From: an uncultured Bacteroidales bacterium
GTDB taxonomy: Bacteria > Bacteroidota > Bacteroidia > Bacteroidales > UBA932
Reading direction: 5' to 3'
Length of the DNA: 64,000 bases
Assembly (NCBI GenBank): GCA_944323445.1
Contig: CALUSM010000011.1
Coordinates: forward strand, 1 to 64,000
Numbering within the stretch: the stretch's first letter is position 1; each line of letters starts with the position of its first letter. This document shows, piece by piece, positions 51,829 to 64,000 of this stretch. A program made the position numbers and the translations under genes. Below the pieces are notes generated by a model. The model did no database searches. It was given only the letters and a program-made list of their open reading frames with translations, and was not told the origin of the DNA.

Positions 51829-51913
51829 GCCCAGATGGTGAAATTGGTAGACACGCTACTTTGAGGGGGTAGTGCCTGTTTAAGGCGTGCAAGTTCGAGT
51901 CTTGTTCTGGGCA
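51829..51913 (+). tRNA. tRNA-Leu(GAG)
   Basis: This class II tRNA folds with acceptor GCCCAGA/TCTGGGC and discriminator A. The anticodon stem CTACT/GGTAG encloses the loop TTGAGGG, so the anticodon is GAG (Leu, CUC/CUU). A long variable arm (TGCC...GGCG) is typical of Leu. The T arm is GCAAG/CTTGT around TTCGAGT. The CCA end is not encoded. Confidence 0.95.
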
Positions 51914-51957
51914 CAAAAAAGTCTGAATCAGTTGATTCAGACTTTTTTTGTGCCCAG
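51907..51957. repeat. Near-perfect inverted repeat extending from the tRNA-Leu 3' end
   Basis: The left arm starts inside the tRNA 3' acceptor (CTGGGCAC at 51907-51914) and runs to 51930. The right arm, 51933-51957, ends GTGCCCAG, the exact complement. Only a one-base difference in the A/T runs (six A, seven T) breaks the 24-bp pairing. Confidence 0.8.
51915..51949 (+). terminator. Rho-independent terminator of tRNA-Leu
   Basis: The 10-bp stem GTCTGAATCA/TGATTCAGAC is flanked by six A before and seven T after, two bases after the mature tRNA end. Confidence 0.85.
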
Positions 51958-51975
51958 GCGGGGCGCCTGTCGCGG

Positions 51976-53420: not shown

Positions 53421-53452
53421 CGCAGAATATTGGAAGAAATCGTCAAAGATTC

Positions 53453-53460
53453 TAAATTTG
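53453..53460 (+). promoter_or_regulatory. -7 promoter element for the D-2-hydroxyacid dehydrogenase
   Basis: TAAATTTG matches TAnnTTTG, 26 nt upstream of the ATG. Confidence 0.5.
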
Positions 53461-53486
53461 CTACAGAATTTTAAACTGACAACTGT

Positions 53487-54431
53487 ATGAAGATAGTTTT
53501 CCTGGATGCCGCTACTGTCGGCAAGGATGTCTCTTTGGACGGACTCAGGCAGTTCGGAGAGACGGTGTTTTATGATGCTACCAAGCCGGGTGAGGCCGCT
53601 TTGAGGGTGGCTGACTGCGATATCGTGATAACCAACAAGGTGAAGGTCTACCGGGACGAGATAGACGCGGCCCGCAACCTGAAACTTATCTGCGTGGCGG
53701 CCACCGGAGTCAACTGCGTAGACGTGGACTACGCTGCCTCTAAGGGCATACCGGTCAAGAACGTGCCGGCGTACTCGACCGAGAGCGTGGCACAGGTGTG
53801 CTTCATGCACATTCTCAACATGGTGGGACACGGGATGTATTTCAATGAGATCTGCCACGACGGACGCTACTCCCGAAGCGGGATGTTCTCCGATGTGCTC
53901 AATCCCTTCTGGGAGCTCAAGGGCAAGAAGATGGGTATCATCGGCATGGGCAATATCGGCTCGCGGGTGGCTGAGCTGGCTACGGCCTTCGGAATGGAGG
54001 TGTCCTACTACTCGACTTCCGGTACCGGGCACTGCAGGGCCTATCCCTGCGTGAGTCTTGAGGAACTGCTGGGCGGAAGTGACATCGTGTCGGTCAACTG
54101 TCCTCTGAATCCTAAGACAAAAGACCTTATCACATACACGGAACTGGGCCGGATGAAGCCCGGAAGCTACATCGTCAACTGCTCCCGCGGAGGCATCATA
54201 AACGAGAACGACCTGGTACGCGCCCTCAACGACGGCCTGATAGCCGGAGCAGCGGTCGATACATTCGAGACCGAGCCCCTGCCCATAGACCATCCTTACA
54301 TAGCCGGAGTCAAGGACCCTTCGAGGCTGATTCTCTCACCGCACATCGGCTGGACCAGCATCGAGGCCCGTATCCGCTTAGTGGAAGTCCTCGAGGAGAA
54401 TATCCGCACCTTCTTGGAGAGCGGCAAGTAG
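53487..54431 (+). CDS. D-2-hydroxyacid dehydrogenase, glycerate dehydrogenase-like
   Basis: This 314-residue NAD(P)-dependent enzyme reduces 2-oxoacids such as hydroxypyruvate. The Rossmann motif is GIIGMGNIGSRVAEL. The catalytic Arg lies in NCSRGGIINE, Glu in DTFETEPLP and His in LSPHIGW. The N-terminal part (VVTN-like ITNKVKVYRDEI, then CVAATGVNCVDV) fits glycerate dehydrogenase-like members. The exact substrate is uncertain. It converges with guaA, 4 bp apart. Confidence 0.9.
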   Translation: MKIVFLDAATVGKDVSLDGLRQFGETVFYDATKPGEAALRVADCDIVITNKVKVYRDEIDAARNLKLICVAATGVNCVDVDYAASKGIPVKNVPAYSTESVAQVCFMHILNMVGHGMYFNEICHDGRYSRSGMFSDVLNPFWELKGKKMGIIGMGNIGSRVAELATAFGMEVSYYSTSGTGHCRAYPCVSLEELLGGSDIVSVNCPLNPKTKDLITYTELGRMKPGSYIVNCSRGGIINENDLVRALNDGLIAGAAVDTFETEPLPIDHPYIAGVKDPSRLILSPHIGWTSIEARIRLVEVLEENIRTFLESGK

Positions 54432-54435
54432 GAGT

Positions 54436-56037
54436 TTACTCCCACTCGATAGTTGCGGGGGGTTTGGACGAGATGTCGTAGACGACGCGGTTCACTCCCC
54501 GCACTTTGTTTATGATGTCGTTGGAGACTTTCGCCAGGAAGTCGTAGGGGAGGTGTACCCAGTCGGCGGTCATTCCGTCGGTGGAGACCACTGCCCTGAG
54601 GGCGATGGTGTACTCGTAGGTGCGCTCGTCGCCCATGACTCCCACGCTGCGTACGGGAGGGAGGATCGTTCCGGCCTGCCAGATGCAGTCGTAGAGGGTC
54701 AGGAAGCCCTCACCTGTCTCGGTGCCGCCTGTGGCCGCTGCTCCGGATGCGGGCTGCCAGCCTTCGGGGGCGGGGGTGGAGCGGAGGGCGTCGATGTAGA
54801 TGGCGTCGGCGTTGCGCAGTATCTCCAGTTTCTCGCGGGTCACCTCGCCGAGCACCCTGATGCCGAGGCCGGGGCCGGGGAAGGGATGGCGGGAGATGAG
54901 GGAGTTCTTGATGCCGAGGGCGCGGCCTACGCGGCGGACCTCGTCCTTGAAGAGGGAGCGCAGGGGCTCGACGATCTTAAGGTTCATTTCCTCCGGAAGA
55001 CCGCCTACGTTGTGGTGGGACTTGATGGTCTGTGAAGGACCGTTGACGGAGGCGGATTCTATCACGTCCGGATATATGGTGCCCTGGGCAAGCCAGGATG
55101 CGTTTTCTATCTTGTGTGCCTCCGCATCGAAGACCTCGATGAAGGTGCGGCCGATGGCCTTGCGCTTGGCTTCGGGGTCGGATATGCCCTCGAGGGCCTT
55201 GAGGAAGAGCTCGGTGGCGTCCACTCCGCGGACGTTGAGCCCCATGTCCTGGTAGGAGGCCAGCACGGACTCGTACTCGTCCTTGCGCAGCAGCCCGTTG
55301 TTGACGAAGATGCAGTGCAGCTGCCGTCCGATGGCCCTGTGCAGCAGGACTGCCGCCACAGAGGAGTCGACTCCGCCGGAGAGGCCGAGGATGACATTGT
55401 CCTGACCTATTTTCTCCCTGAGGGACTCGATGGAGCTTTCAATGAAGGAGGCGGGGGTCCAGTCGCCCTTGCAGCCGCAGATGCGCATGGCGAAGTTCTC
55501 CAGAATCTGAGGCCCGTAGGCCGAATGATAGACCTCCGGGTGGAACTGGACGCACCAGGTCTGCTCACCTTTTATATGATAGGCGGCGTTGACCACATCG
55601 TCGGTGGAGGCTATGACCTCCGCGCCTTCGGGGAGACGGGCGATGGTGTCGCCGTGGGACATCCAGACCTGCGAGTCGGAGGGAATGCCCTCGAACAGGG
55701 GGCATTGTTCCTTGATATGCATGATGGCGCGGCCGTACTCACGGGCGATGGAGGGATTGACCTCCCCGCCGTAGCGGTGAGCGATGTACTGGGCGCCGTA
55801 GCAGATGCAGAGCATGGGGAAGCGTCCCTTGATGCCGGAGAGATCGGGGGAGGGGGCCTTCGGGTCGCGGACGGACCAGGGGCTGCCCGAGAGAACCACG
55901 CCGCGGACGCTGTCGTCGAGGGCGGGTATCCTGTTGAATGGATGGATTTCGCAATAAACGTTCAGCTCCCTGAGTCTGCGGCCGATTAGCTGGGTGACCT
56001 GTGAGCCGAAATCGAGGATTATGATCTTCTCCGTCAT
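54436..56037 (-). CDS. guaA: GMP synthase (glutamine-hydrolysing)
   Basis: GuaA aminates XMP to GMP. The ATG at 56037 gives 533 residues and the expected start [20 protein letters not shown]. The glutaminase has the nucleophile Cys79 in LCICYGAQY. The synthetase half has the PP-loop [16 protein letters not shown], and the C-terminal dimer domain ends with [10 protein letters not shown] Gly/Ala/Thr-rich insertion of roughly 20 residues ([14 protein letters not shown]) in the C-terminal part makes it longer than the usual 505-525 residues. It has its own promoter, divergent from typA. Confidence 0.96.
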
Positions 56038-56077
56038 GGTGTGTGGTGGGTTACTGTTAAAATTTAATGTCAGGGTG

Positions 56078-56085
56078 CAAATGTA
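56078..56085 (-). promoter_or_regulatory. -7 promoter element for guaA
   Basis: The minus-strand octamer TACATTTG lies 40 nt upstream of the guaA ATG. Confidence 0.45.
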
Positions 56086-56098
56086 AATAAATTTCAAT

Positions 56099-56106
56099 TA
56101 ATTTTG
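56099..56106 (+). promoter_or_regulatory. -7 promoter element for typA
   Basis: TAATTTTG matches TAnnTTTG and ends 10 nt before the ATG, implying a leader of only a few bases. Confidence 0.45.
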
Positions 56107-56116
56107 CGCCCCGAAT

Positions 56117-57919
56117 ATGCAAAACGTAAGAAATATAGCCATCATCGCCCATGTCGACCACGGTAAGACCACTCTGGTGGACAGAATGATATATCAGGCG
56201 AAGCTCGTCCGGGAGGACGGAAAGCACGGGGGCGACCTGATCTTGGACAACAACGATCTGGAGCGTGAGAGAGGTATCACTATCCTCGCCAAGAACGTAT
56301 CTGTGCCGTACAAGGGCATTAAGATCAATATCATAGACACTCCGGGCCACGCCGATTTCGGAGGCGAGGTCGAGAGGGTGCTCAACATGACGGACGGAGT
56401 GCTGCTGTTGGTGGATGCCTTTGAGGGCACCATGCCGCAGACCCGCTTCGTGCTGCAGAAGGCCATAGAGATGGGCAAGAAGCCTATTGTGGTGATCAAC
56501 AAGGTGGACAAGCCCAACTGCCGTCCCGACGAGGTCAACGAGCAGGTATTCGACCTGATGTTCTCGCTCAACGCCACTGAGGAGCAGCTGGACTTCAAGA
56601 CCGTCTACGGCAGTGCCAAGCAGGGCTGGATGTCCCTGGACTGGCGCAAGCCCACGGGCGACATCATCCCGCTGCTGGACACCATCGTGGCTGAGATACC
56701 GGCGCCCAAGTATGTGGAGGGCACTCCCCAGATGCTGATTTCCTCCCTCGAATATTCGCCCTACGTGGGACGTATCGCGGTGGGCAGGGTCAGCCGAGGA
56801 GCCCTGACGGCCGGCATGCAGATCTCCCTCTGCAAGAAAGACGGCACAGTGGAGAAACAGAAGATCAAGGACCTGATGGTATTCCAGGGACTCGAGAAGA
56901 AGAGTGCCGGGAAGGTGGAGTGCGGGGATATCTGCGCTGTAGTCGGCCTGGAGGACTTCGAGATAGGCGATACGGTGGCAGATTTCGAGAATCCTGAGGC
57001 TCTGCCGCCCATCACCGTGGATGAGCCTACGATGAGCATGCTGTTTACCATCAACGACTCGCCCTTCTTCGGCCGCGACGGCAAGTACGTGACCTCCAGG
57101 CATCTGAAGGAACGACTGGAGAAAGAGTTGGAGAAGAATCTGGCGCTGAGGGTAAAGCCCGGCTTAGGCGCTGATTCCTTTATAGTATACGGCCGCGGTG
57201 TTCTGCATCTGTCGATCCTTATCGAAACGATGCGCCGCGAGGGCTTCGAGCTGCAGGTAGGCCAGCCCAAGGTCATCGACAAGAATATCAACGGGGTACG
57301 TTGCGAACCAGTCGAGCTGCTGACCATAGACCTGCCCGAGGAGATGGTCGGCAAGGCCATCGAGATATCCACCCGCCGCAAGGCCTCCCTGACCCACATG
57401 GAAACCCGCGGGGACAGGGCCCATCTGGAGTTCGACATCCCTTCGAGGGGTCTGATAGGTCTGAGAAGCAACCTGATGACCGCCACCCAGGGCGAGGCCG
57501 TAGTGGCCCACCGCTTCAAGGGCTACGAGCCGTACAAGGGCGAGATAGAGAAGCGCAACAATGGCTCCCTCGTCTCCCTCGAGACCGGTCTCTCAGTGGC
57601 TTACGCCATGGATAAGCTCCAGGACCGCGGCCGCTTCTTCATCGATCCGGGCGAGGAGATATACGCCGGTCAGGTGGTCGGCGAGCACACCAGGGCGAGC
57701 GACCTGGCCATCAACATCTGCAAGACCAAGAAACTGACCAATATGAGGGCGTCCGGCTCCGACGAGAAGGTGATGCTGCCGCCTCCCATCAAGTTCTCCC
57801 TTGAGGAGGCTCTGGAGTATATCCAGGAGGACGAGCTGGTGGAGGTGACTCCTCACTTCATGCGTCTGAGGAAGATTATTTTGGACGAGAACGAGAGAAA
57901 GCGCAGGAGAATGCAATAA
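56117..57919 (+). CDS. typA: Ribosome-associated GTPase TypA/BipA
   Basis: This 600-residue translational GTPase binds the ribosome and supports 50S assembly and stress growth. G1 is AHVDHGKT (residues 11-18), G3 is DTPGHADFGGEVERV and G4 is NKVDKPNCRP. Domain II, the EF-G-like domains III and V, and the TypA-specific C-terminal domain (VMLPPPIKFSLEEALEYIQE) are all present at full length. It is transcribed from its own promoter. Confidence 0.97.
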   Translation: MQNVRNIAIIAHVDHGKTTLVDRMIYQAKLVREDGKHGGDLILDNNDLERERGITILAKNVSVPYKGIKINIIDTPGHADFGGEVERVLNMTDGVLLLVDAFEGTMPQTRFVLQKAIEMGKKPIVVINKVDKPNCRPDEVNEQVFDLMFSLNATEEQLDFKTVYGSAKQGWMSLDWRKPTGDIIPLLDTIVAEIPAPKYVEGTPQMLISSLEYSPYVGRIAVGRVSRGALTAGMQISLCKKDGTVEKQKIKDLMVFQGLEKKSAGKVECGDICAVVGLEDFEIGDTVADFENPEALPPITVDEPTMSMLFTINDSPFFGRDGKYVTSRHLKERLEKELEKNLALRVKPGLGADSFIVYGRGVLHLSILIETMRREGFELQVGQPKVIDKNINGVRCEPVELLTIDLPEEMVGKAIEISTRRKASLTHMETRGDRAHLEFDIPSRGLIGLRSNLMTATQGEAVVAHRFKGYEPYKGEIEKRNNGSLVSLETGLSVAYAMDKLQDRGRFFIDPGEEIYAGQVVGEHTRASDLAINICKTKKLTNMRASGSDEKVMLPPPIKFSLEEALEYIQEDELVEVTPHFMRLRKIILDENERKRRRMQ

Positions 57920-57957
57920 AAAAGTCCAAAACAATTTCGGAATATTGAAAAATTTTA

Positions 57958-57965
57958 TATCTTTG
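57958..57965 (+). promoter_or_regulatory. -7 promoter element for DUF177-rpmF
   Basis: TATCTTTG matches TAnnTTTG, 20 nt upstream of the DUF177 ATG. Confidence 0.5.
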
Positions 57966-57985
57966 CCGCCCTTAATTGTCGGGAA

Positions 57986-58438
57986 ATGAATTGCAAGATA
58001 GGGATACGCGGGCTTTCAAACGGAGAACATCCGTTCCACGTCAAGGTGGACGGGAGTTTCTTCGAGGCATACGAGAGCGATACTGTCTCGGATGCTGAGT
58101 TGGATGTCAATGCCCTGATAACCAAGGAACCGGGCCGTATGAGCCTGGATCTCGGTATTACAGGGGACGTGACGGTGAAGTGCGACAGATGCCTCGCTGA
58201 CCTGAAGATTCCGGTGGATATTCAGGTGCCTTTCTCGGTGATGTTCTCCTCATACGCCGAGGATGCGGAGGAGGGAGTCTCGGACGAGGTGATACTTCTT
58301 GACGGCAGTTCTTCGGAGATAGACCTGGGTCAGATTATTTACGACTATGTCAATCTCAGCCTCCCGATAAAGAAGGTTCATCCCGAGGGCGGATGCGACC
58401 CGGTGATGATGGAAAAGCTGAAAGATATTTTAAAATAG
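57986..58438 (+). CDS. DUF177 (YceD-like) protein
   Basis: This 150-residue protein of the DUF177/YceD family has the conserved CDRC-type centre (TVKCDRCLADLKIPVDIQV) and the acidic stretch before YDYVNLSLPIKKVHPEGGCD, which keeps the C-terminal conserved Cys. DUF177 genes are linked to rpmF across bacteria, as here (23 bp before it). In plants and E. coli the family is connected to 23S rRNA accumulation. Confidence 0.92.
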   Translation: MNCKIGIRGLSNGEHPFHVKVDGSFFEAYESDTVSDAELDVNALITKEPGRMSLDLGITGDVTVKCDRCLADLKIPVDIQVPFSVMFSSYAEDAEEGVSDEVILLDGSSSEIDLGQIIYDYVNLSLPIKKVHPEGGCDPVMMEKLKDILK

Positions 58439-58461
58439 AAATAATTAAAATTTAGAATAAG

Positions 58462-58644
58462 ATGGCACATCCCAAACACAAACTCTCAAAGCAGCGCAGG
58501 GACAAACGCAGAACTCATGACAAACTGACTCTCCCCGCACTTTCCACATGCTCCAACTGCGGAGCCACAGTACTGTATCACCGCGTATGCCCTGAGTGCG
58601 GCTACTACCGCGGACGCCTGATGGTAGAGAAGAACGTTGAGTAA
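58462..58644 (+). CDS. rpmF: 50S ribosomal protein L32
   Basis: This 60-residue protein starts MAHPKHKLSKQRRDKRRTHD. It carries a zinc ribbon with Cys30, Cys33, Cys43 and Cys46, so it is the zinc-binding form. It is the second gene of the DUF177-rpmF operon. In many bacteria fatty-acid genes plsX and fabH follow, but here a structured intergenic region and tRNA-Arg follow instead. Confidence 0.96.
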   Translation: MAHPKHKLSKQRRDKRRTHDKLTLPALSTCSNCGATVLYHRVCPECGYYRGRLMVEKNVE

Positions 58645-58786: not shown

Positions 58787-58858
58787 GGCCCCATAGTTCA
58801 AGGGATAGAATGGAAGTTTCCTAAACTTTAGATACAGGTTCGAGTCCTGTTGGGGCTA
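58787..58858 (+). tRNA. tRNA-Arg(CCT)
   Basis: The cloverleaf closes with acceptor GGCCCCA/TGGGGCT (one terminal G-T pair), T8 and A9, and D stem GTTC/GAAT. The anticodon stem GAAGT/ACTTT has loop TTCCTAA, so the anticodon is CCT (Arg, AGG). The T arm is ACAGG/CCTGT around TTCGAGT, and the discriminator is A. CCA is not encoded. Confidence 0.93.
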
Positions 58859-58863
58859 CTTGA

Positions 58864-58892
58864 GAACAACTCAAAGAGTTGTTCTTTTTTTT
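58864..58892 (+). terminator. Rho-independent terminator of tRNA-Arg
   Basis: The 9-bp stem GAACAACTC/GAGTTGTTC with loop AAA is followed by eight T, starting five bases after the tRNA. Confidence 0.88.
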
Positions 58893-58933
58893 GCTCCCGG
58901 TGGTCACACATCCCTGGCCTCTCCCGGTGATTT

Positions 58934-58995
58934 GCAGAAGAAGCAGAAAAGCGGAACGCGAGCGAACTCGTGTTCCGCTTTTCTGCTTCTTCTGC
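58934..58995. repeat. 29-bp inverted repeat with a CGAA loop
   Basis: Arms 58934-58962 and 58967-58995 pair over all 29 positions with one G-T pair, leaving a 4-nt CGAA loop. It abuts the tRNA-Ser-like 3' end, so it probably was the transcript end of a minus-strand tRNA-Ser gene. Confidence 0.9.
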
Positions 58996-59014
58996 GGAGA
59001 GAGGGGCTCTCGAA
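58995..59014 (-). mobile_element. Putative attachment site: tRNA-Ser 3'-end fragment
   Basis: Read on the minus strand these 20 nt are TTCGAGA (T-loop), GCCCC (T-stem 3' strand), TCTCTCC (acceptor 3' strand) and G (the discriminator of tRNA-Ser). The 5' strand of the T-stem should be GGGGC but reads ATAAG, so the tRNA identity stops at the T-loop. This is the pattern left when an integrase has inserted an element into the 3' part of a tRNA gene. The repeated copy should lie at the far end of the element, outside the window. Confidence 0.65.
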
Positions 59015-59121
59015 CTTATACTTTCACAGAATATCATAAAACTGCAAACGACTGATAATCAAGTGTAAATTACAATATAGAGTAAAAGTAAATGTTTCTA
59101 AATGTCTTTTGCTATCTCAAT

Positions 59122-59165
59122 AATTGGGTGTATATTTGGGTGTAGAATTTCAAACGCACCCAATT
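59122..59165. promoter_or_regulatory. Operator-like repeats around the integrase promoter
   Basis: AATTGGGTG (59122-59130) and CACCCAATT (59157-59165) are perfect inverted repeats. A second direct copy of TTGGGTGTA lies at 59136-59144. The -7 element sits between them and the ATG follows at once. It may serve as an operator or as integrase arm-type binding sites. Confidence 0.6.
59131..59138 (+). promoter_or_regulatory. -7 promoter element for the integrase
   Basis: TATATTTG matches TAnnTTTG and lies 27 nt before the ATG at 59166, inside the repeat region. Confidence 0.5.
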
Positions 59166-60449
59166 ATGAATATCAAGCGCAACATCATTTTTGCATTGGA
59201 GAGCCGGAAAAAGAACGGTGTGCCAATCGTAGAGAACGTACCCATCCGTATGCGTGTCATCTTTGCCAGCCAACGCATCGAGTTTACAACGGGCTACCGG
59301 ATTGACGTAGCCAAATGGGATGCAGATAAGCAGCGGGTAAAGAACGGATGTACCAACAAGCTAAAGCAAAGTGCAGCCGAAATCAATACGGACTTGCTGA
59401 AATACTATGCCGAAATCCAGAATATTTTCAAGGAATTTGAGGTGCAGGAGGTCATGCCAACGACCCAACAGTTGAAGGAAGCTTTCAACATGAGAATGAA
59501 AGACACCAGCGAAGAACAGCCGGAAGAAGCCCCTGTCAGCTTTTGGGAGGTGTTCGATGAGTTTGTAAAAGAGTGCGGTAACCAGAATAACTGGACGGCA
59601 TCCACCTATGAAAAATTTGCAGCAGTGAGGAACCACCTCAAAGAGTTCAAGGAGGATGCAACGTTCAACTATTTCAACGAGTTTGGATTGAACGAATACG
59701 TCAACTTCCTGCGTGACACCAAGGATATGAGAAACAGCACCATCGGCAAGCAAATGGGATTCCTCAAATGGTTCCTGCGCTGGAGCTTCAAGAAAGGACA
59801 TCATCAGAACATTGCATACGATACGTTCAAACCGAAACTGAAAACCACCTCGAAAAAAGTAATCTTCCTGACTTGGGATGAACTGAACAAGCTGAAAGAC
59901 TACCAGATACCCAAGGATAAGCAATACCTGGAACGTGTGCGTGATGTTTTCCTGTTCTGCTGCTTTACGAGTTTGCGGTATTCGGATGTTCGCAATCTGA
60001 AAAGAAGCGATGTGAAGTCCGACCACATCGAAATAACCACAGTCAAGACTGCCGACAGCCTGACGATTGAACTGAACAAATACAGCAAAGCCATACTGGA
60101 CAAATACAAGGACATCCATTTCGAGAATTACATGGCTCTGCCCGTCATCAGCAACCAGAAGATGAACGATTACCTGAAAGAGCTGGGCGAACTGGCAGAA
60201 ATCAACGAGCCTGTACGGGAAACCTACTACAAGGGAAATGAACGTATTGATGAAGTCACACCCAAATACGCTTTGCTCAGTACCCATGCAGGAAGAAGGA
60301 CATTCATCTGCAATGCGCTGGCTCTCGGAATCCCGGCACAGGTGGTCATGAAATGGACGGGACACAGCGACTACAAAGCTATGAAACCCTACATTGACAT
60401 AGCGGATGATATTAAGGCAAATGCCATGAACAAGTTTAATCAACTATAA
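59166..60449 (+). CDS. Tyrosine site-specific integrase
   Basis: The ATG at 59166 gives 427 residues. This recombinase has the Bacteroidota integrase layout: an N-terminal arm-binding domain (MNIKRNIIFALESRKKNG...), a SAM-like core-binding domain (FWEVFDEFVKECGNQNNWTA) and a C-terminal catalytic domain. The catalytic residues are Arg in TSLRYSDVRNL, His and Arg in THAGRRTF, His in WTGHSDYKAM and the Tyr nucleophile in KPYIDIADD. It should catalyse insertion at, and excision from, the adjacent tRNA-Ser-like site. A frame extension to 59124 begins at TTG and is unlikely. Confidence 0.94.
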   Translation: MNIKRNIIFALESRKKNGVPIVENVPIRMRVIFASQRIEFTTGYRIDVAKWDADKQRVKNGCTNKLKQSAAEINTDLLKYYAEIQNIFKEFEVQEVMPTTQQLKEAFNMRMKDTSEEQPEEAPVSFWEVFDEFVKECGNQNNWTASTYEKFAAVRNHLKEFKEDATFNYFNEFGLNEYVNFLRDTKDMRNSTIGKQMGFLKWFLRWSFKKGHHQNIAYDTFKPKLKTTSKKVIFLTWDELNKLKDYQIPKDKQYLERVRDVFLFCCFTSLRYSDVRNLKRSDVKSDHIEITTVKTADSLTIELNKYSKAILDKYKDIHFENYMALPVISNQKMNDYLKELGELAEINEPVRETYYKGNERIDEVTPKYALLSTHAGRRTFICNALALGIPAQVVMKWTGHSDYKAMKPYIDIADDIKANAMNKFNQL

Positions 60450-60512: not shown

Positions 60513-61808
60513 ATGAGCAACAAGGAATCCAACATAGAGAAAACGAATTTTGATGCATTCATACAAGCGGTCGGTTCGGAAATAGAACAGGCACAAGTAA
60601 GGCTGATTGTTGCAGCCAATGCACAAATGCTGTTCCATTACTGGAAGATAGGCAATTACATCCTTTATCACCAGCAGCTGCACGGATGGGGAAGCAAAAT
60701 CATCAAGCAGTTGGCAAAGGCTATCCGACTGCATTACCCTGAAAAGAAAGGCTATTCGGAACGTAACCTTACCTATATGTGCCAGTTTGCAAAAGCATAT
60801 CCTTTAAGAGCGTTGCAAAGTTTCATAGAAACAGATGCAAGCCTGTCTGTCCCAACCATACAGAGTGTGACCAATGAAGTATTAAAACTGAATGACAAGC
60901 AATTTACGCAGGAACTTACTGCGCAAATACAATCGATTGATTGTCAATCATTAGCAATTACGCAGGAAGTTCCTGCGCAATTTGAAGATGTGGGAAAAAC
61001 CGTGTCTGCCATTTACAGGATGGGAATCAGGGAAATAGAAGAAGTTTTCTTGACCTCTCCTATAGCCAAAATAAACTGGACAAGCCAAATGACTATACTT
61101 GACAGTTCGCTACCTTTAGGTCTAAGCTACTGGTACATGAAGCAGTCTGTGGAAATGGGATGGAGCAGCAATGTATTGAAAATGCAAATTGACAGTGATT
61201 TGTATAGCCGACAAATCAGCAACAACAAGGTAAACAATTTCACGACCACACTTCCGGCTCCACAAAGCGACCTTGCCAATTACCTACTCAAAGACCCGTA
61301 CATCTTTGATTTGGCAGGAGCCAAAGAAAAAGCAGACGAAAGGGATATTGAAGAACAGCTGGTGAAACACGTTACCCGCTACCTGTTGGAAATGGGCAAC
61401 GGTTTTGCCTTCGTTGCCCGGCAGAAGCACTTCCAAGTCGGAAACAGCGATTTCTTTGCCGACCTGATTCTATATTCCATTCCGTTGCACGCATATATCG
61501 TGGTAGAATTAAAGGCTACCCCATTCAAACCGGAGTATGCAGGACAACTGAACTTCTACATCAATGTGGTGGATGATAAACTGAGGGGAGAGAATGACAA
61601 CAAGACTATCGGGTTGTTGCTATGCAAGGGAAAAGACGAAGTTGTGGCACAATACGCATTGACAGGCTATGACCAGCCCATCGGCATCAGCGATTACCAA
61701 TTGAGCAAAGCGATTCCCGAGAAACTGAAATCAGCGTTGCCCAGCGTGGAAGAAGTGGAAGAAGAACTGGCCTCTTTCCTTGACAAAGACAATAACACTC
61801 AAAAATAG
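60513..61808 (+). CDS. DUF1016 (YhcG-like) PDDEXK nuclease-domain protein
   Basis: This 431-residue protein has the N-terminal DUF1016 helical domain (QMLFHYWKIGNYILYHQQLH, WGSKIIKQLAKAIR, YSERNLTYMCQFAKAYP). The C-terminal PD-(D/E)XK-type nuclease fold carries NSDFFADLILYSIPLHAYIV followed by VELKATPFKPEYAGQL, which supplies D...E-x-K. The family is spread on mobile elements and sits near restriction genes; its true activity is unknown. Residues about 132-156 come from a cluster of palindromic DNA repeats. It lies 63 bp after the integrase gene. Confidence 0.9.
   Translation: MSNKESNIEKTNFDAFIQAVGSEIEQAQVRLIVAANAQMLFHYWKIGNYILYHQQLHGWGSKIIKQLAKAIRLHYPEKKGYSERNLTYMCQFAKAYPLRALQSFIETDASLSVPTIQSVTNEVLKLNDKQFTQELTAQIQSIDCQSLAITQEVPAQFEDVGKTVSAIYRMGIREIEEVFLTSPIAKINWTSQMTILDSSLPLGLSYWYMKQSVEMGWSSNVLKMQIDSDLYSRQISNNKVNNFTTTLPAPQSDLANYLLKDPYIFDLAGAKEKADERDIEEQLVKHVTRYLLEMGNGFAFVARQKHFQVGNSDFFADLILYSIPLHAYIVVELKATPFKPEYAGQLNFYINVVDDKLRGENDNKTIGLLLCKGKDEVVAQYALTGYDQPIGISDYQLSKAIPEKLKSALPSVEEVEEELASFLDKDNNTQK
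60904..60980. repeat. Cluster of three palindromes inside the DUF1016 gene
   Basis: CGCAGGAACTTACTGCG (60907-60923) and the perfect palindrome CGCAGGAAGTTCCTGCG (60961-60977) differ at two positions. Between them is TGATTGTCAATCA (60938-60950), also palindromic. The array keeps the reading frame and encodes the repeated peptides TQELTAQI and TQEVPAQF. Confidence 0.7.
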
Positions 61809-61816
61809 TTGCGTCC

Positions 61817-62860
61817 ATGAAAGATGTAATTACAACGCTGATTCCCCGATACGGAGAATTGAACAGAATATATAAAGACTGGTTTGATAATAAAGGTTTC
61901 TCTTTTGAAAAGCAGAAATTCATTACCAAGTTCTATCTGGACTACAATGATGTAACGGTTCTTGAAACAGCCATTCTTGAACTGGTGTTTCATCTTCCAC
62001 AGGAGCAATACACACTGATTCTGAATAGCCTGAAAAAGGAAGTATGCGAAAACATAAGTTATTACAAGAAAGGATGTATGCCGGATGAACAGACCGTTTA
62101 CAATATCTGCTTCCGAGTTTCAGAAATCTATAAAGAAGCCATAGAAGAACAGCAATACAAGACGACCAAGCTCCATGCTCCGCTAAACGAAGCATACCAC
62201 CGATACGATTCCATAGGTTATCGGGAACACACTGCAGAGGATGAAAAGCGTGCGGAAATGGAATATGAACGGTGCAAAGATGAATACGAGGAGAAAAAAA
62301 ACAAGCTGACCGAACTCTACGATCTGCAAAAACAGACCAGAGAGAAAGCCCTGCAATATGCAAAAAGCCGTTTCAATGAAATCTATCGGCTGGGCTGCCA
62401 CCTCAAAGAGACATTGGCGAAATATGTATTTGATGAAACAAACGAGCCGGAAGAGCCAGCCGAACAAGAACCAAATGCCCCCAACATACAGGAAGAAGTG
62501 CTGGGAACGAAACAGACTGAGTATTTCAATATGGAACTGCTTTCGCTCATTCATGTAACCTGCGTGGGAGAACAGTTCGAGAATATTTCCGAACATGATT
62601 TCTATACCTGCATGAACCTGCTACCAAGCGACACCAAACCCCAAATCAGACCGAGAGAAAAAATACGTACCTGCTATCTGATATTCCTGATGAGCGAAAA
62701 ACTGCCCAAACAGGACAGGGAGAATTGGAAGAGGAATATCCTGAAAATATTGGATATTGAGGAAAGCTACTACAAGTCAAAGTACAAAGAGCCTGTTTCC
62801 GATTTCCCCAGTGACAGCAACCGGAAATTTGCCAAAGAAATGGATGGTATATTCCGATAA
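61817..62860 (+). CDS. Hypothetical coiled-coil protein of the mobile element
   Basis: I do not recognise this 347-residue protein. It is mostly helical and charged. A long coiled coil is likely at about residues 130-180 (EDEKRAEMEYERCKDEYEEK onward), followed by an acidic Pro/Glu linker (NEPEEPAEQEPNAPN). The C-terminal third has EKIRTCYLIFLMSEKLPKQD. It has no transmembrane segment or catalytic motif. The gene lies 8 bp downstream of the DUF1016 gene, so they are likely co-expressed. A terminator follows. Confidence 0.75.
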   Translation: MKDVITTLIPRYGELNRIYKDWFDNKGFSFEKQKFITKFYLDYNDVTVLETAILELVFHLPQEQYTLILNSLKKEVCENISYYKKGCMPDEQTVYNICFRVSEIYKEAIEEQQYKTTKLHAPLNEAYHRYDSIGYREHTAEDEKRAEMEYERCKDEYEEKKNKLTELYDLQKQTREKALQYAKSRFNEIYRLGCHLKETLAKYVFDETNEPEEPAEQEPNAPNIQEEVLGTKQTEYFNMELLSLIHVTCVGEQFENISEHDFYTCMNLLPSDTKPQIRPREKIRTCYLIFLMSEKLPKQDRENWKRNILKILDIEESYYKSKYKEPVSDFPSDSNRKFAKEMDGIFR

Positions 62861-63084: not shown

Positions 63085-63393
63085 ATGAAAAATCTTCAAG
63101 AATTATTATCAAAACCCGTCTGGCAGATGACAGGTGAAGAGTTCATATTCCTAAGTAAGCACGCTTCCCGTCAAACGGAAACGCAGCCACAGCCCATTAC
63201 AGACACAGAAAGAAAATATGTGTACGGAATACTGGGCATAGCCAAACTGTTCGGGTGCAGCCTACCCACCGCCAACCGTATCAAGAAAAGCGGAAAGATT
63301 GACAAGGCAATCACTCAGATAGGACGTAAGATTATCGTGGATGTTGAGCTTGCCCTTGAACTGGCTGGAAAGAAAACAGGAGGACGGAAATAA
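63085..63393 (+). CDS. DUF3853 family DNA-binding protein
   Basis: This 102-residue protein matches the DUF3853 family of Bacteroidota mobile elements. The pattern PVWQMTGEEFIFL near the N-terminus and a helix-turn-helix-like YGILGIAKLFGCSLPTANRI with KSGKIDKAI are characteristic. The protein probably binds DNA as an excisionase-like or regulatory factor, which I infer from its fold. It precedes the RepA-like ATPase by 8 bp. Confidence 0.85.
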   Translation: MKNLQELLSKPVWQMTGEEFIFLSKHASRQTETQPQPITDTERKYVYGILGIAKLFGCSLPTANRIKKSGKIDKAITQIGRKIIVDVELALELAGKKTGGRK

Positions 63394-63401
63394 CGGGAGG
63401 C

Positions 63402-64000
63402 ATGGCTATGGACTATATGAAAGAGACTAAGGAAATATCGGCTGAAGAAGCCATAATCCTTTGGCAAGCCTCACGTTTGAGCCTGTCGAAAAGTTATGAG
63501 AAAGCACCTGAAATCCTTAAAGTACATGATTCTGTCATTGGGACATTGGGTAATTTCAGCGCATCCATCGGCAAAGCCAAAAGTAAAAAAACGTTCAATG
63601 TATCGGCTATCGTAGCCGCTGCATTGAAGAACGGCACAGTGCTGCGGTATGTGGCTGAACTGCCTGAAGATAAGCGGAAAGTGCTTTATGTTGATACAGA
63701 GCAAAGCCCTTACCATTGTCTGAAAGTCATGACGCGCATTTTGCGAATGGCTGGTTTGCCAGATGATAGGGACAATGAGAATCTTGAATTTCTTGCCTTA
63801 AGAAAATACACGCCTGAGCAGCGTATCAGGATTGTGGAACAGGCTATTTACAATACACCCGAAATCGGTCTTGTAATTATAGACGGCATACGGGATATGG
63901 TGTATGACATCAACAGCCCCAGTGAATCAACACGCATCATATCCAAGCTGATGCAGTGGACGGACGACAGGCAGATACATATCCATACGATACTGCATCA
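63402..64000 (+). CDS. RepA-like AAA ATPase, cut at the window end
   Basis: This open frame runs out of the window; 199 residues are visible. The start ATG follows a GGGAGG-type ribosome-binding site. The RecA-like AAA_25 fold has an atypical P-loop IGKAKSKKTFN (residues 57-67), which as I recall is normal for this mobile-element family. The Walker-B-like GLVIIDGIRDMVYD follows. RepA-like ATPases act as hexameric helicases in element replication. Its location after DUF3853 fits a mobilizable element. Confidence 0.8.
   Translation, partial: MAMDYMKETKEISAEEAIILWQASRLSLSKSYEKAPEILKVHDSVIGTLGNFSASIGKAKSKKTFNVSAIVAAALKNGTVLRYVAELPEDKRKVLYVDTEQSPYHCLKVMTRILRMAGLPDDRDNENLEFLALRKYTPEQRIRIVEQAIYNTPEIGLVIIDGIRDMVYDINSPSESTRIISKLMQWTDDRQIHIHTILH

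Follow-up and report, generated by a model that had tools for sequence, protein, structure and literature searches.

A probable NBU2-family integrative mobilizable element in the 3' end of a tRNA-Ser(CGA) gene of an uncultured Bacteroidales bacterium

The window, a 64,000-nucleotide stretch of DNA from an uncultured Bacteroidales bacterium, corresponds to positions 1-64000 of contig C11 in a genome assembly of 2.29 Mb and 59 contigs; this contig runs out at position 66750, within the element described here. To the left of the junction lies a host gene on the plus strand, for tRNA-Arg(CCU) (58787-58859; ARAGORN, and Rfam RF00005 at 63.9 bits). It is followed by the plus-strand motif TGCTCCCGGTGGTCACACATCC (58892-58913), a component of a cassette that in this genus accompanies tRNA-Ser genes on their 3' side. 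The motif has an exact copy here and a 2-mismatch copy on contig C10 of the same genome, and it also occurs by tRNA-Ser genes of relatives. Then come a long minus-strand hairpin (58934-58995), a stretch of tRNA-Ser-like sequence and, on the plus strand, a gene for a tyrosine integrase of 427 aa (59166-60449) with the Pfam domains Arm-DNA-bind_5, Phage_int_SAM_5 and Phage_integrase.

The integrase gene is the first of a series on the plus strand. It is succeeded by genes for a YhcG/DUF1016 nuclease-like protein (60513-61808; Pfam, and PADLOC PDC-S02), an uncharacterised protein of 347 aa (61817-62860) that has no Pfam match at 1e-3 and is also present in the related elements L133, L134 and L136 as ORFs of 339 aa, a DUF3853 protein of 102 aa (63085-63393; Pfam) and an AAA_25 ATPase (63402-64000; Pfam), whose gene runs past the window to C11:64484. 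Between this gene and the end of the contig at 66750 we observed a Toprim/primase-like gene and a mobilization-type ORF, which is homologous to a 467-aa ORF of L133 and is without Pfam or NCBIfam match. In the variant element L134, the YhcG/DUF1016 position is taken by a short, different ORF. No conjugation machinery was seen among the element ORFs read. Proteins 92.7-93.0% identical to the integrase are encoded in three records of a plasmid collection, and the integrase stretch has a 99.6% identical counterpart in G211, a genome of another family; from these two observations, elements of this kind move widely.

A first-pass annotation of this DNA had drawn attention to the minus-strand 20-mer CGGAGAGAGGGGCTCTCGAA at 58995-59014 as the severed 3' end of a tRNA-Ser gene. 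Its sequence and position, the adjacent hairpin and the integrase ORF were all as reported, as were the acceptor strand TCTCTCC, the discriminator G and the absence of a 5' partner. The T-loop had been called complete, and this did not hold: the base after the 7-nt loop is G at the left junction (TTCGAGA-GCCCC), where an intact tRNA-Ser gene on contig C57 of the same genome, described below, has C (TTCGAAT-CCCTC). Also, the missing T-stem partner had been expected to read GGGGC, and the intact gene has GGGGG. A second copy of the 20-mer had been forecast downstream, with its absence named as grounds for rejecting the insertion. We found the 20-mer at 58995-59014 as its sole match in the genome with up to 3 mismatches allowed (a backwards-pattern control gave 0), and to the letter this forecast failed. 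The test was badly posed, because the element contributes nearly half of the 20-mer, and recurrence is to be expected of the 12 target-derived nucleotides alone, here with one base changed.

By sequence comparison, the apparent 20-nt tRNA piece is a chimera, in which CGGAGAGAGGGG (58995-59006, minus strand) is derived from the target and the sequence from CTC onward is the element-borne core CTCTCGAAC (59007-59015). The 12-mer comprises the discriminator, the acceptor 3' strand and four T-stem bases of tRNA-Ser(CGA), and it matches 10 of 13 other tRNA-Ser(CGA) genes of the genus. Compared with these genes, the 21-mer of the window differs only at three bases in 10/13 cases and shows 1 further difference in the other 3; the three deviating bases (59007-59009, plus strand) are CTC in place of GAT. 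We compared 14 related left junctions, a set found by integrase similarity with the window's own copy left out. Core positions 13-15 read CTC in 11 of these, whatever the target part, GAC in 2 (L089, L092) and GAT in 1 (L087, the same copy as L134), while the 12 bases preceding the triplet are of 8 kinds. Because those 12 bases vary while CTC is present in 11/14, and because the 12 bases of L136 continue the reading frame of an ABC-transporter gene, positions 1-12 can be assigned to the target and CTC onward to the element. Core bases 16-21 (TCGAAC) are identical in both partners here and were assigned through relatives in which the partners differ (L084, L091, L103, L108); the sequence common to both ends here is CGGAGAGAG[G/A]GG. 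We take the core triplet to be tRNA positions 59-61, so that the base after the loop would presumably be C61 of the tRNA; the element's version would then place G61 opposite G53, breaking the G53-C61 pair.

The exact 20-mer occurs in 5 stretches of the GTDB contig collection, and among these none was seen to carry it apart from an element. In four (L002, L003, L004, L006) it is followed by a left end of the window's kind, on contigs that stop 64-213 bases on; in L005, from Millionella massiliensis, it is followed by a different left end with its own integrase. The Millionella locus (G062:C1:401510-461366) has the 20-mer 60 kb from a tRNA-Ser-type 3' end that is preceded by right-end-like sequence; there, the same core appears to serve a larger element.

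The first-pass annotation had also predicted that the target was restored at the far end, and this prediction, made from sequence alone, was borne out once the far end was in hand. A search with a relaxed tRNA-Ser 3'-end pattern gave a match at C57:69-88 on the minus strand, and ARAGORN placed a tRNA-Ser(CGA) at C57:68-156, the discriminator being base 69 by the pattern match. Bases 1-68 of C57 lie outside the tRNA and resemble the right end of the element, flush with the intact gene. When the right 3.5 kb of the related element L136 was compared with the genome, only two matches were obtained, at C11:66707-66750 (100%) and at C57:1-69 (97%); in L136, the two matching parts are separated by ~3.4 kb that is absent from this assembly. 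The genome has one left junction and one matching right end. From these observations, which link the contigs by homology, we infer that C11 and C57 carry the two ends of one element across an unassembled gap, with 7,756 bp assembled on C11 and 68 bp on C57.

There was one difference between the two copies of the target sequence. Among 14 tRNA-Ser(CGA) genes of the genus (at least 95% identical, C57 included), 13 have G at core position 10, like the left junction, and that of C57 alone has A. Most likely, the element replaced the end of the tRNA gene and changed C64 to U, which would give a G50-U64 wobble pair; a species-specific change at this position is a lesser possibility, as one genome of the species was at hand. 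The six tRNA-Ser(UGA) genes that adjoin relatives have A at position 10 (L136 deviates at position 9), and on this basis the present copy may derive from a UGA gene as its earlier target. In the genome itself, which is 88.9% complete, we found tRNA-Ser genes for CGA, GCU and GGA only; that for UGA may sit in the unassembled part.

We searched 393 genomes of the order with the segment 58995-60450 and obtained matches in 44, this genome included, many of them weak. In 10 matching genomes we looked for tRNA-Ser partners, with a pattern that asked for an intact tRNA end, and found both ends of an element on one contig in 5, a right end at a contig start in 1 (G211) and no pair in 4 (G052, G107, G228, G370). 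The core-to-core distances are 11,740 bp in L132, 11,212 in L133, 14,232 in L134, 11,219 in L135 and 11,216 in L136. The right ends of these five relatives and of G211 (L137) adjoin intact tRNA-Ser(UGA) genes. The 7,756 bp from C11 align over their full length at 82% with L132, L133 and L136 and at 78% with L135, and in two blocks with L134. L133 has genes whose products pass the NCBIfam cut-offs for Lnu(AN2) and Mef(En2); L136 has ORFs with the lengths and the first 60 residues of those of L133 for this cargo, and L134 has other cargo. The cargo part of a relative gave no match in the present assembly.

Because of two of these loci, not every copy appears to lie in a simple site. The left junction of G211, CGGAGAGACAGG, mismatches its restored tRNA at a T-stem position and would not pair there, so that this left flank may come from elsewhere. 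The left flank of L136 (L136:1-445) is an ABC-transporter gene, though its right end adjoins a tRNA-Ser gene, which suggests either recombination between copies or a secondary site. Judged by eye, what lies to the left of L133 and of L134 looks like the right end of a further element, which would fit tandem insertions at one tRNA-Ser gene. The present genome has a further integrase gene on C10 (L157, near C10:45300), whose left junction, CGGTGAGGGGGG-AACTAAAG, follows a long hairpin, ~29 kb from the tRNA-Ser(GCU) at C10:16495-16581; this is probably a second element in another tRNA-Ser gene. Our comparison of integrase arm sites at the two ends gave a best 22-mer match of 17/22 in inverted orientation, with a shuffle control that covered direct matches only.

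We consider it very likely that the locus holds an NBU2-family integrative mobilizable element, whose tyrosine integrase directed it into the host tRNA-Ser(CGA) gene, at the 3' end; the insertion is an ordinary one, of a further member of a known family. Both ends and the intact tRNA gene are present in the assembly, and homologous elements have both ends on one contig. Against this reading it can be said that C11 and C57 are separate, unjoined contigs and that the cargo is absent from the assembly; the 4 genomes that gave no pair and the irregular left ends of G211 and L136 weigh on the same side. The lack of a join would favour a reading in which the 20-mer belongs wholly to the element and has no more than a likeness to tRNA-Ser, the insertion went to a different site, and the right end on C57 is that of another copy; the element-borne nature of the core CTCTCGAAC and the protein gene to the left of L136 are in its favour as well. 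We judge this improbable, however, since the 12 bases before CTC are of several kinds in the related junctions and thus track the target, and here they are those of the genus tRNA-Ser(CGA) 3' end. The single left junction and single matching right end of this genome also argue against it, as does a left flank with the hairpin-cassette architecture known from tRNA-Ser genes.

Tyrosine integrases at tRNA 3' ends are common to phages and genomic islands, and the locus might on that general ground be a prophage or another island at tRNA-Ser. This is the remotest of the readings. The gene order of integrase, nuclease-like protein, DUF3853, AAA ATPase, primase-like protein and mobilization-type ORF fits an NBU-type element, relatives of 11.2 kb carry resistance cargo after that gene series, and the seven proteins searched gave no match to phage structural families.

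For the NBU2-family insertion in tRNA-Ser(CGA), we propose the following course. Strand exchange would have fallen towards the 3' end of the gene, probably around T-stem positions 61-64. The left junction would thereby retain the former 3' end of the host gene (12 nt of tRNA) together with the hairpin, severed from the gene, and the right end of the element would bring a tRNA-Ser 3' end of its own with a terminator-like hairpin. Fused to the host 5' part, this right end would complete the tRNA-Ser(CGA) gene, most likely with a single base altered. The new trailer is exemplified by L137:1-106, which contains a terminator-like hairpin of -25.6 kcal/mol (z -4.43). CTnDOT-type recombination involves partners that differ in sequence between their cleavage sites, and CTC at the left with GAT at the right would be compatible with this. 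The integrase is presumed to be active, and transfer would depend on a helper element.

In G009 (L143), a block 96% identical to window positions 53447-58644 (guaA, bipA, DUF177, rpmF), with the same tRNA-Arg gene, is separated by 1.2 kb from a tRNA-Ser(CGA) without interruption and the genes of C57, which supports the placement of C11 and C57 near each other. Relative to tRNA-Ser(CGA), the guaA-bipA-rpmF genes of G009 occupy the opposite flank, which implies a local rearrangement by the integration site, such as an inversion, in one of the lineages. The hairpin sequence of the window was found beside an intact tRNA-Ser gene in 0/58 relatives, and no exact empty site was seen. This result and the rearrangement that has to be supposed count against the insertion reading.

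The hairpin had been described by the first-pass annotation as a 29-bp structure that fits the former end of the tRNA-Ser transcript, and both statements agree with our observations. Its arms (58934-58962 and 58967-58995) are 29 nt long and 97% complementary. Among 5 inverted repeats of at least 20 nt listed for the window, the hairpin ranks second in length and first in complementarity, and the segment 58925-59020 folds at -62.6 kcal/mol (z -9.07). Flush long hairpins occur, by eye, at no fewer than 9 of 13 other tRNA-Ser(CGA) genes of the genus (L036, L037 and L038 are without). We rejected the idea that such a hairpin is exclusive to tRNA-Ser. Hairpins of at least 12 bp that start within 4 nt of the tRNA end follow 11/37 tRNAs in this genome (G000; 12-23 bp) and 17/41 in G017, where stems of 12-20 bp follow 14/41 when tRNA-Ser is set aside and the three longest (26 bp) belong to tRNA-Ser; tRNA-Ser(GGA) has no such hairpin in either genome. 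Because similar stems follow so many other tRNAs, the hairpin is of the ordinary terminator type, only longer. Two other candidates were dismissed: a genome-wide family, as the loop motif CGAGYNAACTCG occurs once in the genome (with 1 mismatch, 2 occurrences in the window against 2.61 expected by chance), and an Rfam microRNA family, for which the matches lay far under the gathering scores.

The sequence beyond the hairpin also follows a pattern in this genus. A 108-nt query from G017 gave 28 matches in 7 of 8 genomes; 14 of these (5 genomes) span the hairpin, and the other 14 cover the outer part only. Twelve of the 14 that span the hairpin are at tRNA-Ser genes called by ARAGORN (CGA, GCU and UGA), 1 is at a tRNA-Ser cut by a contig end and 1 is at an element left junction. 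Full cassettes repeat the 3' end of their own tRNA-Ser gene as its reverse complement, ~110 nt past that end. From 19 extracted flanks we tested 10 that are full-length and at intact tRNAs, several of them from close relatives and hence not independent; the 9 set aside are 3 flanks at element junctions, 4 without the outer part, 1 with a different hairpin and 1 truncated where its contig stops. In 9/10 the longest match (7-11 nt) was to the cognate end, with a 5-nt tie in the tenth (G015 CGA), and second tandem copies had a cognate match of at least 7 nt in 3 of 4 that were readable. The outer part is missing from the GCU flanks of G018 and G016 and from two CGA flanks of G016, which speaks against a universal rule. 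The cassette loci are L151, L152, L154, L156, L158, L160, L161, L164 and L165, and window positions 58892-58995.

Across all tRNAs whose flanks were long enough, a match of at least 8 nt to the gene's own antisense within 150 nt downstream was found for 3/35 in G000 and 4/40 in G017 (two of them tRNA-Ser), an enrichment over the other-isotype ends used as controls (10/1,136 and 22/1,490, respectively); the sense end gave 0/75 and upstream regions 0/73. Antisense copies of a gene's own last bases were also seen downstream of tRNA-Pro CGG (L223, 14 nt), tRNA-Gly CCC (L179, 14 nt) and, in the window at 51829-51960, tRNA-Leu GAG (8 nt). Possibly, though we regard this as rather doubtful, many tRNA-Ser genes of the genus are followed by a ~110-nt cassette, made up of a flush hairpin of at least 26 bp, two smaller hairpins and an isoacceptor-matched anti-acceptor, as if pairing with the tRNA 3' end were maintained, and an NBU2-type insertion severs the tRNA from this cassette and supplies the element's trailer instead. 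Maintained pairing is suggested because the anti-acceptor tracks the isoacceptor (CGA, GCU, UGA) while the cassette is otherwise shared; the anti-acceptor could have arisen either by template switching at hairpins or by maintained RNA pairing. If the idea is correct, such pairing could, for example, disable a read-through tRNA or shape the integrase target. No title among the literature matches listed deals with this trailer, which is not a claim that it is absent from print. The isoacceptor-matched trailer and the core triplet that decides tRNA integrity are, in our opinion, the points of lasting interest at this locus.

The state of the tRNA gene bears on the use of NBU2 in genetics. Insertion of NBU2 vectors is stated to disrupt or inactivate tRNA-Ser in the portions available of PMC6692515 and PMC8816746, and is supposed to do so in those of PMC9259675 and PMC10948884. 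In contrast, native NBU2-type elements keep tRNA-Ser whole, with the triplet GAT, at all 7 right junctions read (six relatives and C57), a count biased by a search for intact tRNA ends whose pattern asked for GAT and would miss CTC right ends. It should be noted that this comparison with vectors is also affected by survivors being biased towards working tRNAs and by vector att fragments that may differ. Because the element's three bases would break the G53-C61 pair, the triplet on the tRNA side, CTC or GAT, would decide whether the tRNA is broken or whole, which matters for a widely used vector.

In the parts of PMC8138268 and PMC5704250 available, the NBU1/IntCTnDOT subgroup resembles the present element in having arm-binding tyrosine recombinases of Bacteroidetes elements, and NBU1 differs in its site, the 3' end of tRNA-Leu. 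NBU2 is described in the available text of PMC5704250 as an 11.1-kb element in the 3' end of tRNA-Ser that carries linAN2 and mefEN2, with a family mobilization protein of the MobP type. The likeness of our element to NBU2 (IntN2, attN2, and attBT2 in tRNA-Ser), as far as NBU2 is described, is one of target and integrase and, through its relatives, of size and cargo: both target tRNA-Ser at the 3' end by means of a tyrosine integrase, which here has arm-binding, SAM-like and catalytic domains; relatives measure 11.2-11.7 kb, with one of 14.2 kb, and the one relative tested, L133, has the Lnu(AN2) and Mef(En2) cargo. The tRNA gene, held to be inactivated in the vector papers, is whole here, and the target is tRNA-Ser(CGA), where the relatives read have UGA; target choice appears to follow the core sequence and not the isoacceptor.
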